From Calothrix sp. NIES-4101 (lineage in GTDB: Bacteria; Cyanobacteriota; Cyanobacteriia; Cyanobacteriales; Nostocaceae), in assembly GCA_004296455.1 (NCBI GenBank), contig AP018280.1:6932794-6996793 (forward strand): 64,000 nucleotides of DNA. Reading direction: 5' to 3'. Position numbers and translations under genes: made by a program. Position 1 is the stretch's first letter. Each line of letters opens with the position of its first letter. Below the pieces are notes generated by a model. The model had not been told where the DNA came from, made no database searches, and saw only the letters and a list, made by a program, of their open reading frames with translations. Of the stretch, positions 55,785 through 61,664 are shown piece after piece.

Positions 55785-57161
55785 TCAATACCCCTTGTCC
55801 AACTGTGATAACACAAGAAATGCTGCAACTTCCACATGTGCTGTCTGAGGAAAGAAGTCAGCTGGTTGGACAAGCTTTAGCTTATATACTCCATCTTGAC
55901 AAAGTAATTTGAGGTCGCGTGCCAATGTGGCAACTTTGCAGCTAACATAAACAATTTGTTTGGGCTTAGATAACAACAAAGCTTCAATTACACTGCGATC
56001 GCAACCTTTACGCGGTGGGTCGAGAATAACAATATCAGGTTTGATATTCATATTTGGAAGTAACTCTTCAACCTTCCCAGGATGAAACTCGACATTCTTA
56101 ATGCCGTTATATTCGGCGTTTAACTTCGCTTGTTCCACCGCTTCTGGTTGTACTTCCAACCCCCAGGCGTAATTAACATGCTGTGCCAGTGGCAAAGTTA
56201 AGGTTCCAATGCCACAATAGGCATCGAGGAGATTTTCTTCACCACTTAGACCGAGTTCTAACTGAATTTGTTGCAATAAAGCCTCCGCCGTTTCGGTGTA
56301 AACCTGAAAAAACGTGTCGGGACGCACTTGAAATTTCAATCCGGCAAATTCTTCCCACAAGAAATTTCTGCCAACTAGACAGCGAGTGTCTCGCCCAAAG
56401 ATGACATTCGTGCGATCGCCATTCAGGTTTAACATCACTCCAACTAATGGGGGATAGCGGTCTAACCACTCTTGTGCAATAGCCGTAATATCTGGTATCA
56501 TTAGTTGTTTAACTACAAGCGTTAACAGTATTTCCCCTGTACGACGACCAATCCGCAAGCTCAAATGACGAATTAATCCAGTGTGGCGATTTTCGTCATA
56601 GGGTTGCCAACCTTGTTTTTGGATATCTTGTTTAATTTCCCGCAGCAACACATTTAAACGCTGGTCTTGTACAGGGCATTGATTTAAATTCACAATTTGA
56701 TGACTACCTTTTTGGTAATAGCCCGCAACTAAATTCCCCGTTGCTGATTTCCCTACCGGATAAGTCGCCTTATTGCGATAACCGAAAGAATCCCCCACCG
56801 CTAAAACCTGATTCACAGGTGGCGCTGCAAAACCTCCAATCCGTTCCAATGCTTGGATAACTTGATTGCGTTTAGCTTGTAATTGCAATTCATAATCAAT
56901 ATGCTGCCACTGACAGCCCCCGCATTTATCAGCCACAATGCAATTTGGACGAATACGGTGCCGAGATGGTTGTAATATTTCCTTAGCGATAGCATGAGCA
57001 AACTTGGGCTTCACGTGCAGCAAGCGGGCTTGAATGACATCCCCAGGTACCGTATCGGGAACAAATACAACCCGCTCACAACTACGTCCAACACCATCTC
57101 CAGTATCAGTTAAGTCGGTAATTTCAACTTCAATTAATTCGCCTTGCTGCCAAATAGTCAT
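55785..57161 (-). CDS. rlmD: 23S rRNA (uracil-C5)-methyltransferase, RlmD/RumA type
   Basis: A 458-residue RNA methyltransferase. An N-terminal TRAM domain (ELIEVEITDLTDTGDGVGRS) is followed by the [4Fe-4S] Cys set including CIVADKCGGC and a later CPVQ. The SAM motif is LLDAYCGIGTLTLPLA, VILDPPRKGCDRS follows, and SCKVATLARDL holds the nucleophile Cys. Bacterial cousins modify U1939 or U747; cyanobacteria usually have one such enzyme, so the exact target is not fixed. ATG 57161 is preferred over the upstream start at 57209. Confidence 0.92.
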   Translation of the reverse strand: MTIWQQGELIEVEITDLTDTGDGVGRSCERVVFVPDTVPGDVIQARLLHVKPKFAHAIAKEILQPSRHRIRPNCIVADKCGGCQWQHIDYELQLQAKRNQVIQALERIGGFAAPPVNQVLAVGDSFGYRNKATYPVGKSATGNLVAGYYQKGSHQIVNLNQCPVQDQRLNVLLREIKQDIQKQGWQPYDENRHTGLIRHLSLRIGRRTGEILLTLVVKQLMIPDITAIAQEWLDRYPPLVGVMLNLNGDRTNVIFGRDTRCLVGRNFLWEEFAGLKFQVRPDTFFQVYTETAEALLQQIQLELGLSGEENLLDAYCGIGTLTLPLAQHVNYAWGLEVQPEAVEQAKLNAEYNGIKNVEFHPGKVEELLPNMNIKPDIVILDPPRKGCDRSVIEALLLSKPKQIVYVSCKVATLARDLKLLCQDGVYKLKLVQPADFFPQTAHVEVAAFLVLSQLDKGY

Positions 57162-57622
57162 TTGTTTATTGGTTATATAGTTTAGTGATTGAGTTTTGGG
57201 CAATAGCACTCAGTAAAGCCTTCTCAACCCATGGTTTGGGTTTCCTGCACCTTCAGAACCAAAGGCATTGTGATGGGAGTTGAGAGGAGAGTTGCAAATC
57301 TTTATAAAGATTGCTCATCTAGAATCGCTAGATGTTGCATTGTAAAATATGTGTAGTTAACTAAAGTAAAATTTCTGCCTTGGGAAGCAGGGTAGCTGCC
57401 TGGATTGCGATTAGGTGACTAATTGCATAAAGGTTCGTAAAACAACCAGAGACGCTATGTAATGCCATGCTCAGATTTTGGAGACTCTTTGAGAGTAGCG
57501 AAAATACTGATGGTAAAGGCGGATGAGACAGGAAACCCGCACGATTATTTTGTAATTGGTGGTGGGTACTTCACAAAAAGCAAATATTATTTAATTAATG
57601 CGATCGCATTTCCTCATTAATC
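57162..57622. other. Divergent region between rlmD and apcD
   Basis: 461 bp holding the promoters of both genes. Small hairpins such as ACTCT-TTG-AGAGT near 57483-57495 could lie in an apcD leader. A HIP1 site overlaps 57600-57607. No open frame is supported. Confidence 0.5.
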
Positions 57623-58111
57623 ATGACCGTAGTAAGCCAAGTTATTCTCAAATCCGACGACGAACTGCGTTACCCCAGCAGTGGCGAACTCAGAAATATC
57701 AATGACTTTTTGAAAACCGGCGAACAAAGAGTTCGCATCGTCACCACCTTGTCGGAAAACGAAAAGAAAATTGTTCAAGAAGCAACTAAACAATTGTGGC
57801 GGAAACGTCCTGACTTTATTTCACCAGGAGGGAATGCTTACGGACAGCGTGAACGTGCCCAATGTATCCGCGATTTTGGCTGGTACTTGCGTCTCGTGAC
57901 TTATGGAGTCCTTGCTGGTGATAAAGAACCAATCGAAACAATTGGTCTTCTTGGCGCAAGGGAAATGTACAATTCCTTAGGTGTACCCCTAGCTGGAATG
58001 GTAGAAGCTATTAGCAGCCTCAAAAATGCCTCGCTGGAACTTTTAAACTCTGAAGATGCAGCTGAAACTGCGCCTTACTTTGATTACATCATTCAAGGTA
58101 TGTCGTCCTAA
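57623..58111 (+). CDS. apcD: Allophycocyanin alpha-B subunit
   Basis: A 162-residue phycobiliprotein. [20 protein letters not shown] and the central [12 protein letters not shown] are characteristic of ApcD. Cys81 ([14 protein letters not shown]) binds phycocyanobilin. ApcD is a terminal emitter of the phycobilisome core that passes energy mainly toward photosystem I. The gene stands apart from an apc operon, as is usual for apcD. A long hairpin follows at 58194-58251. Confidence 0.97.
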
Positions 58112-58334: not shown

Positions 58335-58410
58335 AAAAAACCGACAGTCTTGTGAAAGGCTGACGGCACTCAAGTGTGTTCCCTATTAATGACTCGGTTA
58401 GAGTTCAGTT
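58335..58410 (-). ncRNA. Tandem small RNA, copy 1
   Basis: A 76-nt unit read on the minus strand from AACTGAACTC (5' end near 58410) to a T6 tract (58335-58340). The 3' end is a GC-rich hairpin of the CCGTCAG...CTGTCGG type followed by T6, a standard intrinsic terminator. The central part GAGTCATTAATAGGGAACAC is identical in all three copies. GATACT (58417-58422 on plus) is the -10 candidate, six bases upstream. I cannot match it to a named small RNA from memory. Copy 1 has the most differences in the stem. Confidence 0.7.
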
Positions 58411-58416
58411 AAGCTG

Positions 58417-58422
58417 AGTATC
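58417..58422 (-). promoter_or_regulatory. -10 element of small RNA copy 1
   Basis: GATACT on the minus strand, six bases upstream of the conserved 5' end and 52 bases downstream of the CRP-type palindrome centre. Confidence 0.5.
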
Positions 58423-58465
58423 TCTAATTTCTCCGGTTGATCATAGGATTTAAATCCCAGCGAAC

Positions 58466-58481
58466 AGTGATTCTCGTCACT
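58466..58481. promoter_or_regulatory. CRP-type palindrome upstream of small RNA copy 1
   Basis: AGTGA-N6-TCACT, one base away from the CRP consensus in each arm. Its centre is about 64 bp upstream of the predicted start, as in the other two copies. Confidence 0.55.
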
Positions 58482-58560
58482 CAAGAGGAGAGGTAGAAGC
58501 TCAAAAGCAGCAACACGGGGAGTTTTGTATCACTGATACTTTCTGAATTGCAATATTTAA

Positions 58561-58660
58561 TATTGTTTCTCCAAAATCTGGCAACACATAAAATAAATCT
58601 CCGTGTCTCTCCATCTGTGCGTCCCCGCGTCACCATCTATTACTTTCTTTTGGATAATTT
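58561..58660 (-). repeat. Dispersed ~100-bp repeat, copy C (inverted)
   Basis: The inverted form of copies A and B: AATTATCCAAAAGAAAGTAA at one end and TTTTGGAGAAACAATA at the other when read on the minus strand. It lies between small RNA copies 1 and 2. Confidence 0.8.
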
Positions 58661-58808
58661 AAGTCGTTGCGATCGCAGCAATAACCCCAACAGGGTTTAA
58701 ACCTCTGCGGAAATTACTGATTTTTTACGTGAAAGAATCTTATATACTAGCTTCCTAAGTTTGATCCCTGAAATGTGGCACATCGCTACCAAGTCTTAGG
58801 GCAAAAAC

Positions 58809-58884
58809 AAAAAACCGACAGCCTTTTGAAAGACTGACGGCGCTTAAGTGTGTTCCCTATTAATGACTCGGCTAGAGTTCAGTT
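58809..58884 (-). ncRNA. Tandem small RNA, copy 2
   Basis: A 76-nt unit with the same start (AACTGAACTCTAGCC), core and 3' hairpin plus T6 (58809-58814) as copies 1 and 3. It differs from copy 3 at only about four positions. The AATAAT -10 candidate is at 58892-58897 and a perfect TGTGA-N6-TCACA is further upstream, so it should be transcribed independently. Confidence 0.75.
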
Positions 58885-58891
58885 ATTTTTG

Positions 58892-58897
58892 ATTATT
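58892..58897 (-). promoter_or_regulatory. -10 element of small RNA copy 2
   Basis: AATAAT on the minus strand, seven bases upstream of the conserved 5' end. Confidence 0.5.
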
Positions 58898-58941
58898 CCA
58901 GTGCTGAGAAGACAAAGAGACGATCTTCATCAATACTTTAG

Positions 58942-58957
58942 TGTGATTCTTGTCACA
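58942..58957. promoter_or_regulatory. CRP-type operator upstream of small RNA copy 2
   Basis: A perfect TGTGA-TTCTTG-TCACA palindrome. Its centre is 53 bases upstream of the -10 hexamer, near -64 relative to the predicted start, compatible with class I activation. Confidence 0.7.
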
Positions 58958-59014
58958 ACACAAATGCAACAACATCTGTTCTGACTTTATTGATGGGCAA
59001 AGGGCTGTAAAAAC

Positions 59015-59090
59015 AAAAAACCGACAGCCTCTTGAAAGACTGACGGCGTTTAAATGTGTTCCCTATTAATGACTCGGCTAGAGTTCAGTT
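59015..59090 (-). ncRNA. Tandem small RNA, copy 3
   Basis: A 76-nt unit from AACTGAACTCTAGCC (near 59090) to T6 (59015-59020), with the same core and terminator hairpin. The CATAAT -10 candidate is at 59097-59102 and a perfect CRP-type palindrome at 59146-59161. It lies closest to purL, which is divergent. Confidence 0.75.
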
Positions 59091-59096
59091 GGTTAC

Positions 59097-59102
59097 ATTA
59101 TG
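59097..59102 (-). promoter_or_regulatory. -10 element of small RNA copy 3
   Basis: CATAAT on the minus strand, six bases upstream of the conserved 5' end. Confidence 0.5.
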
Positions 59103-59145
59103 ACTTTTTCACCCTGAAAGGTGTACGATCCTTATCAAGTAATTA

Positions 59146-59161
59146 TGTGATTTTCATCACA
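59146..59161. promoter_or_regulatory. CRP-type operator upstream of small RNA copy 3
   Basis: A perfect TGTGA-TTTTCA-TCACA palindrome, centred 52 bases upstream of the -10 hexamer. It also lies about 150 bp upstream of purL on the other strand. Confidence 0.7.
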
Positions 59162-59306: not shown

Positions 59307-61664
59307 ATGACCGTTTCCTCACAACCTCCGTTTTCTCCCCAGGAAATCGCATCGGAAGGCATTAAACCTGAAGAATACCAAGATATAGTCCAACGATTAG
59401 GTCGCCATCCCAATAAAGCCGAACTGGGTATGTTTGGTGTCATGTGGTCAGAACATTGTTGTTACAAGAATTCTCGACCATTATTAAAGCAATTCCCCAC
59501 CACGGGTAAACGTATTCTCGTTGGCCCCGGCGAAAATGCAGGCGTTGTAGACTTGGGTGATGGCTTACAACTAGCATTTAAAATTGAATCCCATAACCAT
59601 CCCTCAGCAGTCGAACCGTTTCAAGGAGCAGCTACAGGTGTTGGAGGCATACTGCGAGATATTTTTACCATGGGTGCGCGTCCCATTGCGATTTTAAATT
59701 CACTGCGATTCGGCTCATTAGAGGATTCCCGAACCCAAAGACTTTTCCAGGGAGTTGTTGCTGGTATTTCCCACTACGGCAATTGTGTTGGGGTTCCCAC
59801 TGTTGGGGGTGAAGTTTATTTTGACCCCGCCTATTCGGGAAATCCCCTGGTGAATGTGATGGCGCTGGGGTTGATGGAAACAGCCGAAATTGTCAAGTCC
59901 GGGGCTTCTGGCTACGGGAATCCGGTATTATATGTGGGCTCCACAACTGGACGCGATGGCATGGGTGGTGCCAGCTTTGCCAGCGCCGAACTTAGCGATG
60001 AATCAATGGACGATCGCCCAGCCGTACAAGTTGGTGATCCATTTTTGGAAAAGTCACTGATTGAAGCTTGTTTAGAAGCTTTTAAAACAGGTGCAGTTGT
60101 CGCCGCCCAGGATATGGGTGCTGCGGGTATTACTTGTTCGACATCGGAAATGGCTGCTAAAGGTGGAGTTGGGGTTGAATTCGATTTAGATAAAATTCCC
60201 GCACGAGAATTCGGTATGGTGCCTTATGAATATCTGCTTTCGGAGTCGCAGGAGCGGATGTTATTTGTGGCACACAAAGGGCGCGAGCAGGAATTAATTG
60301 ATATTTTCCACCGTTGGGGTTTGCAAGCAGTTGTCGCGGGGACCGTGATTTCAGAACCAATTGTGAGAATATTCTTCCAAGGAGAAATTGCGGCCGAGAT
60401 TCCCGCAACTGCATTGTCAGAAAATACTCCTTTGTATGAGCGAGAAGTATTAACAGAAGCCCCAGAATATGCTCGTCAAGCGTGGGAATGGACAGCCGAT
60501 TTATTGCCCAGTTGTACTGTCAAGGGAATCGAAATTAATGGCGACTGGCACAGTTGGAATGATGTGTTATTTACTTTGCTCGATACCCCGACAATTGCCT
60601 CGAAGCGTTGGGTTTATCGCCAATATGACCATCAAGTCCAGAATAATACGGTACTTATGCCTGGCGGAGCCGATGCGGCAGTGATTCGCTTACGCCCATT
60701 AGAACCGGGAGAGACGAAACATACCGCATCTGTAACGAAAGCTGTTGCCGCAACTGTAGATTGTAATCCCCGTTACGTGTATCTTGACCCTTATGAGGGT
60801 GCCAAGGCTGTTGTGGCTGAGGCGGCACGTAATTTATCTTGTGTGGGTGCAGAACCGTTGGCGGTGACGGATAATCTAAATTTCGGCAGCCCTGAAAAAC
60901 CAATTGGTTACTGGCAATTGGCAGAAGCTTGTCGGGGGTTGGCGGCAGGCTGCCGTGAACTGGAGACTCCTGTGACGGGTGGAAATGTCTCTTTGTATAA
61001 TGAGACGCTGGATTCCCAGGGAAATCCCCAACCAATTTATCCAACTCCAGTGGTGGGTATGGTTGGTTTAATCAATGATTTATCGAAAATTTGTGGCCAA
61101 GGGTGGAAAAATGTCGGTGATGCAATTTACTTGCTAGGTGTATCTGGAGAATCCCCAGTTGCATTGGGTGCATCTGAATATTTAGCAACCATTCACAACA
61201 CCGTTGCCGGGAAACCTCCCCGCGTTGATTTTGATTTAGAACGTCGGGTACAAAAAGCTTGCCGTCAAGGAATTGCCCAAGGCTGGGTAAGTTCTGCCCA
61301 TGATTGTGCCGAAGGTGGTTTAATTGTAGCGATCGCCGAAGCTTGTATCAGTAACAATTTGGGCGCAGAAATCACACTAGATTTACCCGCAAACTTATCC
61401 AATTGCCGTTGGGATGAAGTTTTATTTGGCGAGGCGGGTGCCAGAATTTTGGTTTCTGTATCTCCAGAAAAACAAGCCGCTTGGGAAGATTACCTCCAAC
61501 AAAACCTCGAAAATAAATGGCAAAAAATCGGCAAGGTTGGTAATTGCGACAATGGTTTGCGGGTTTTAACGGCAGATAACCAAGCTGCGATCGCAGTTAG
61601 GATGGAAGAAATGTCAGAAAAATTTTTCCAGGCGATCGAGCGTCGATTAATTTTAGAGTCCTGA
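59307..61664 (+). CDS. purL: Phosphoribosylformylglycinamidine synthase subunit PurL
   Basis: A 785-residue small-type Pur[27 protein letters not shown] and [20 protein letters not shown] are the ATP/substrate motifs, and the second half repeats the AIRS fold ([25 protein letters not shown]). It acts with PurQ and PurS to make FGAM in purine synthesis. ATG 59307 starts it. purF follows on the same strand after ~250 bp, so purine genes cluster here. Confidence 0.97.

Follow-up and report, generated by a model that had tools for sequence, protein, structure and literature searches.

Spot 42 and CyaR are small RNAs under the control of CRP, with a CRP site in the promoter, and NsiR1 of Nostoc is located upstream of hetF. 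Few regulatory RNAs have been followed from one cyanobacterial order to another; those known to us are Yfr1 and Yfr2. The accessible text of a paper on Nostoc 7120 names Spot 42 and CyaR as enterobacterial small RNAs and describes NsrR1, which is ~110 nt long, lies between alr1709 and all1710, carries an NtcA site over its −10 box and is repressed (PMC6166021). For CRP itself, GTGA-N6-TCAC is the form reported for cyanobacteria in the accessible part of a 2009 study of CRP sites, which puts some 22 bp between the CRP site of such promoters and the −10 box that follows (PMC2633013). AnCrpA binds cAMP and a palindromic consensus, and its nif targets may follow another pattern, according to the accessible portions of PMC2633013 and PMC4284465. 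A total of 327 small RNAs have been predicted in Nostoc 7120 (PMC4734099, accessible text).

We analysed a locus in a 64-kb window (the whole stretch of Calothrix DNA under study) that contains three minus-strand units of exactly 76 nt each: copy 1, proximal to purL (59015–59090), copy 2 (58809–58884) and copy 3, proximal to apcD (58335–58410). The preliminary description had reported three equal-length units with a near-invariant 5′ half, a hairpin followed by T6 on the minus strand alone and no encoded protein, and these observations were all borne out. The first 36 nt are the same in all copies apart from G13A in copy 3, the most diverged unit; pairwise differences amount to 3, 6 and 9 of 76 positions, and the nine variable positions are 13, 37, 40, 42, 43, 52, 59, 60 and 63. 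Protein coding was rejected; inspection of the sequences found no ATG inside any unit. Intrinsic terminators with T6 after the hairpin were identified in copy 1 (59015–59047) and copy 2 (58809–58841) by terminator scan and folding, and the corresponding element of copy 3 (58335–58367), in which a C/A mismatch breaks one stem pair, is absent from the scan list; the scan thus picks up two of the three copies on the minus strand and gives no plus-strand terminator (0.7 expected). The same description had placed the variation in the terminator stem, often as pair-preserving changes, which the alignment contradicts: only positions 52, 60 and 63 lie in the stem, and pair 55–60 remains paired but 52–63 turns from U–G into the mismatch of copy 3. 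Its untouched single-stranded middle stands in part—the unpaired segment is indeed untouched, but the GAGTC included in it is predicted to pair in a 5′ hairpin. The upstream flanks of the copies are mutually unrelated (31–38% ungapped identity over 90 nt), so the conservation belongs to the 76-nt unit itself and selection or conversion has acted on the units rather than on their surroundings. A 20-mer of the unit has three occurrences in the whole genome, allowing up to two mismatches. Each unit has the attributes of a free-standing intergenic small RNA gene (promoter-like region, intrinsic terminator, no ORF, kept as a unit), which supports the earlier view of a conserved non-coding RNA with its own promoter-like region and terminator.

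Upstream of the units lie CRP-type sites that the earlier description had overlooked. The promoter layout consists of GTGA-N6-TCAC ~64 nt before the RNA, a TGA-N6-TC dyad 22–23 bp nearer and then a −10 box, all on the minus strand, with the dyads and boxes read from the sequence. Copy 1 has site I (GTGATGAAAATCAC, 59147–59160) centred 63.5 nt before the unit, site II (TTGATAAGGATCGT, 59125–59138) 22 bp after site I and the −10-like box CATAAT (59097–59102); copy 2 has site I (GTGACAAGAATCAC, 58943–58956) centred 65.5 nt before the unit, site II (TTGATGAAGATCGT, 58920–58933) 23 bp after it and AATAAT (58892–58897). Copy 3 has site I (GTGACGAGAATCAC, 58467–58480; outer bases A..T) centred at 63.5 nt, a degenerate site II (GGGATTTAAATCCT, 58445–58458) and GATACT (58417–58422). 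Judged by eye, the spacing from site II to the −10 box agrees with the ~22-bp cyanobacterial pattern, and relative to the putative start site a TGTGA-N6-TCACA-type site occupies a class I/II position. Perfect GTGA-N6-TCAC occurs exactly three times in the window, each time preceding one copy (0.9 expected from block shuffles); TGTGA-N6-TCACA with one mismatch occurs twice (copies 1 and 2; 1.95 expected) and is not enriched, and its outer T/A are not always kept.

The layout recurs in relatives. A perfect site I was found in 137 of 143 distinct upstream regions (L005–L146 and the window), usually centred 64.5 nt before the first A of the unit with spacing that varies by a few nucleotides, and 34 of 35 further loci keep seven or eight of its eight letters; site II, 22–23 bp from site I, is present in 141/143 upstream regions and 33/35 further loci, copy 3 of the window being among the regions without a standard one. 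The six exceptions to a perfect site I carry one change each, with a perfect palindrome 22 bp further up (spacing by eye). A series of three dyads, in which the upper two are spaced by 22 bp and the strongest is furthest from the RNA, was seen in L038, L058, L088, L096, L117 and L142. Of 33 units from other orders, 30 are preceded by a perfect site at a distance of 38–72 nt, with 25 sites at 63.5–65.5, four at 43.5 and two at 41.5 (L248 has two). Four loci of family f58 have a perfect site at −43.5 only. The −42 site is perfect where the −64 site is worn (L256, perfect site at −41.5) or missing (L265–L268); such interchange is the pattern expected of tandem CRP sites. The remaining three units (L249, L262 and L269) are without a perfect site. 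No CRP site is recognisable at L249 (RNA intact) or L262 (RNA nearly intact), whose genomes also have a copy with a full promoter (L250 and L263); these two copies are possibly silent duplicates or under different control.

The genome has eleven HTH_Crp_2 matches, seven of them above the cut-off. The most CRP-like, judged from the translations, is G000:C1:6164296-6164994; among NCBIfam models it scores best with CRP (81.9 bits, short of the 266-bit cut-off; the NtcA model gives 48), its PDB matches include catabolite activator proteins, and by sequence it is a putative AnCrpA orthologue. Across the order sample, 333 of 388 genomes gave an AnCrpA-like match (E ≤ 1e-50). Among the 95 RNA-containing genomes 93 did so, the exceptions being G048 and the 67%-complete G461. 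The first of these is a complete genome in which the RNA (L023) has an intact palindrome. RNA and protein are co-absent in the family sample (RNA-positive genomes, 58 with and 1 without the protein; RNA-negative genomes, 6 with and 6 without; Fisher p = 4e-5), and the link is weaker in the order sample outside the family (35/36 RNA-positive versus 234/281 RNA-negative genomes with the protein; p = 0.025), with both p values overstating independence because the genomes are related. From this co-occurrence, CRP looks needed, not sufficient, for presence of the RNA. Elsewhere in the genome, a CRP/FNR-family match with one TAA inside (G000:C1:4210014-4210199, L239) may represent a paralogue in decay, or the match may have been extended artefactually beyond the end of the gene.

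BLAST with one unit found the RNA in 194 of 217 genomes of its own family. A covariance-model search for the 76-nt unit in other cyanobacteria, to which the preliminary description had pointed, was positive for 95 of 388 genomes of the order in nine families (59/71 of the own family and 36/317 others in eight further families) and for 181 of 388 genomes of a class-wide sample (22 belong to the own order and the other 159 to 14 families of other orders, one carrier outside the order being a genome of 2,593,857 bases). With matches in 22 other families over the order and class samples, the label of a Nostocales small RNA is too narrow. The covariance-model searches used stricter filters than the family BLAST, so that absences in the order and class samples can be misses—G046 has a BLAST match of 2.4e-6 and none in the order covariance search. 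A second covariance model, applied to 40 genomes negative in the order search, gave six weak matches (E 0.004–0.08; uncounted), the best of them in G046; since it adds only weak matches, absence of the RNA from many lineages is probably real. Loci were fetched for inspection from 28 of the 36 non-family order genomes with a match and from 23 of the 159 genomes outside the order (26 loci, hand-picked from the listing). Given its occurrence in many distant cyanobacteria, nearly always with CRP-like sites, this is probably a regulatory RNA of old origin that had been overlooked.

In the window, the units are flanked by a convergent apcD-like allophycocyanin alpha gene (57623–58111, plus strand; 208 bits with the ApcA model, whose cut-off is 270, and no match to an apcD-specific model) and by the divergent purL (59307–61664, plus strand), and the next gene past apcD is a rumA/rlmD-like 23S rRNA methyltransferase gene (55785–57209, minus strand). 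Loss of the unit from relatives with the same gene order had been named beforehand as an argument against an RNA; instead, of 106 loci with 1.5 kb of downstream sequence (some genomes counted twice), 100 retain the RNA in convergent orientation to apcD, as do 33 of 36 additional loci, made up of 28 from other families and 8 divergent or extra own-family copies. A divergent purL lies upstream at 33 of the 44 loci examined over 5 kb; among the 28 loci of other families purL was seen once, 3.2 kb away. In other orders, apcD is within the stretch in 4 of 19 cases and convergent in 3, and six of the 106 loci (five genomes) keep the RNA with apcD not within the stretch. Judged from this gene order, the apcD linkage is old and the purL linkage local. 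Many loci across families share a conserved block (TTGTGT..CC...GAGTCGTTAAACTA-like) located ~60 nt upstream of the start of apcD, which is probably the apcD promoter.

Single matches prevail, in 181 of 194 family genomes (BLAST, up to four candidates scored per genome); among the matches listed, tandem sets of 2–5 copies occur in several lineages, and we infer that these arose independently. The region upstream of window copy 2 resembles that of the first (purL-proximal) copy of four other Calothrix sets (z 7–19), and the region upstream of copy 3 resembles, more weakly, those of later copies of three of these sets (z 4.5–7.9; not L070), suggesting that part of the duplication probably predates the genus. 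L175 and L176 are additional, dispersed copies in two Calothrix genomes; each lies apart from apcD, is preceded by a perfect CRP-type site and occurs alongside a tandem set (L144 and L137, respectively).

Comparison of 71 distinct sequences identified GAGTCAT(T/C)(A/G)A(T/C)AGGGAACACA as the best-kept stretch; it comprises the 5′ hairpin strand, continues into the unpaired segment and is followed by the intrinsic terminator. The 5′ half is almost constant across relatives, and the terminator loop and linker are variable. As L034–L146 were selected, among the matches listed, by an exact 26-base pattern, that stretch is invariant in them by construction; bias-free support comes from bases outside the pattern and from the BLAST and covariance-model matches. 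Several of L005–L033 come from the same genomes as some of L034–L146. Removal of similar units and of one containing N left 60 of the 107 distinct units in sequence set A1, and set A2 omitted L151 and L257 (ended early by a T-run) and a few near-duplicates. GAGTC has a full stem with the inner ACTC in 62 of 71 sequences and with the more 5′ outer GACTC in 22, and at least one of the two in 67, despite changing loop letters. Two-sided changes are nearly absent (none as inner stem, one pair as outer stem), so the support for the 5′ hairpin is persistence. The terminator stem has five pairs with changes on both sides, compared with 0.7 after letter shuffling, but sliding the structure by two or three columns also yields five, making the covariation weak; in the true register 96% of stem cells pair, compared with 20–42% with the partners slid. 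The AGGGAACACA stretch is predicted to be mainly unpaired (weakly part-paired in 2 of 5 folded members).

Target searches were kept shallow, with a single seed word, a single genome and neither accessibility nor multi-species scoring, and found no conserved complementarity to mRNA 5′ regions. The 11-mer complement TGTGTTCCCTA occurs at 58 places in 21 genomes, of which the 19 at the RNA locus itself were discarded from the target count; the other 39 compare with 20 for the reversed control word, and part of this excess may be explained by low-complexity stretches, as at least four off-locus places (L193, L203, L228 and L232) lie in TTCCCTATTCCC-like sequence. No recurrent 5′ target site was found in the 37 of 39 contexts read in these genomes (G086:C46 and G221:C136 excluded), and the one site common to two genomes (L223 and L229) is in no called ORF on that strand. 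Against shuffled RNA, the 5′ regions of apcD, purL, purF and rumA yielded no counted target. Duplexes with the apcD 5′ region were slightly lower in energy (−16.3 versus −14.2 with shuffled RNA; 123 loci); apcD was dropped as a target, part of this signal coming from the conserved block ~60 nt upstream, which resembles its own promoter. A duplex scan of the starts of 1,928 called genes (2.0 of 2.59 Mb, 77%, of one genome) gave none above the control, with the best scores of the reversed seed exceeding those of the real seed.

We consider the best explanation, at a probability of about 0.6, to be that the units are genes for a cAMP-CRP-activated, trans-acting small RNA. Each unit would be a free-standing gene for a regulatory RNA of ~75 nt. 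A cAMP-bound CRP-type protein, putatively the AnCrpA-like G000:C1:6164296-6164994, would bind the palindrome centred at about −64, and a CRP-type protein would also bind the −42 dyad, alone or with a second dimer; in this class I plus class II layout, bound CRP would recruit RNA polymerase to the −10 box, activating rather than repressing transcription from the predicted start site. The transcript would form a short 5′ hairpin through its GAGTC strand and a strong terminator at its end, leaving CAU(U/C)(A/G)A(U/C)AGGGAACACA largely unpaired. When cAMP rises, this segment may pair with target RNAs and alter their translation or decay, and extra tandem copies may provide a higher dosage. The same CRP-controlled RNA could instead titrate a protein or another small RNA as a sponge, without mRNA pairing, and copy number would then matter for stoichiometry. 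The conserved stretch (hairpin strand plus AGGGAACACA, ~22–35 nt) exceeds a typical seed in length and rigidity, tandem copies recur (up to five among the matches listed) and the searches gave no mRNA target signal; these searches were shallow, however, and there is no known binding partner. We regard a sponge as unlikely.

Somewhat less probable still is that the palindromes are bound by another CRP/FNR-family protein (NtcA or a paralogue), which would replace cAMP with a nitrogen or redox signal. Among the eleven HTH_Crp_2 matches one appears NtcA-like in translation, and NsrR1 provides the precedent of a Nostoc small RNA controlled by NtcA (PMC6166021, accessible text), but the motif is GTGA-N6-TCAC, the cyanobacterial CRP form in the accessible part of PMC2633013, and not GTA-N8-TAC, and the co-absence of the RNA is with the AnCrpA-like protein (that protein alone was compared). 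We give very little credence to the units being terminators or attenuators acting in cis for apcD or the purL promoter region, rather than free RNAs: the tail-to-tail position with apcD (100/106 loci) and the divergent purL upstream (33/44) would suit such elements, but the T-run is solely on the strand opposite apcD, the unit has its own promoter at a fixed spacing, and the RNA is kept with no apcD in the stretch in 15 of 19 other-order stretches and at the six loci (five genomes) noted above. The activated trans-acting RNA may belong to a wider scheme to which we assign slightly less than even odds, an ancient cyanobacterial cAMP riboregulon in which one RNA family, spread over several orders, would convert cAMP-CRP input into post-transcriptional control, with dosage tuned by tandem duplication. 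If so, signals passing through cAMP-CRP (far-red light, nutrient stress and salt stress, for example) would be relayed by a module consisting of the near-invariant hairpin plus AGGGAACACA. The RNA, with its rigid core and predicted direct link to cAMP, would be the first known small RNA placed under cAMP-CRP in cyanobacteria; a role of cAMP beyond motility and some nitrogen genes would become testable with one promoter, one receptor and one RNA, and the natural series of one to five copies offers material for a study of small-RNA dosage.

In keeping with the preliminary description, which could name no family, the units match no Rfam 15 family at gathering score; sub-threshold matches (L10_leader, 29.4 bits against 44, and SNORA21) were taken as chance. 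Six sequence words of the RNA are absent from the literature searched, and no report on this RNA or on a cAMP-CRP-controlled cyanobacterial small RNA was found there, subscription papers and supplements being outside its coverage in both cases. In Nostoc 7120, all3653 is presumably apcD. Neither apcD, purL and all3653 nor small RNA is mentioned in the main text of PMC2633013, the 2009 study of CRP sites. The RNA may be an unnamed entry in the published Nostoc 7120 small-RNA table (PMC4734099); entry 4408600f, listed in the accessible text with 236 nt and 19 homologs, differs in length from the 76-nt unit and lies ~35 kb from the position of all3653, interpolated between two published coordinates.

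Small regulatory RNAs are a known kind of element, and this family is without an Rfam entry. It resembles Spot 42 and CyaR, by description and not by direct comparison, in being a short RNA gene with an intrinsic terminator and a CRP site, and differs from them in its cyanobacterial host, its tandem −64/−42 sites and the lack of an Rfam family match. Like Yfr1 and Yfr2 it is widely distributed and has a strongly conserved motif that is presumably unpaired; this motif is CACUCCUCACACC in Yfr1 (PMC4734099, accessible text) versus AGGGAACACA here; Yfr2 has four repeats in 7120 according to the accessible part of PMC6974561. NsrR1 is likewise conserved and intergenic, and is controlled by a protein of the CRP/FNR family (PMC6166021, accessible text). 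Membership of NsrR1 or Yfr1 was rejected by place and motif. NsiR1 is similar as a tandem multi-copy small RNA of heterocystous cyanobacteria, but is HetR-dependent in the accessible part of its description, whereas the RNA here has a CRP-type promoter; set apart from NsiR1 by description rather than by sequence, it is linked to apcD, mostly single-copy and present in 22 other families.
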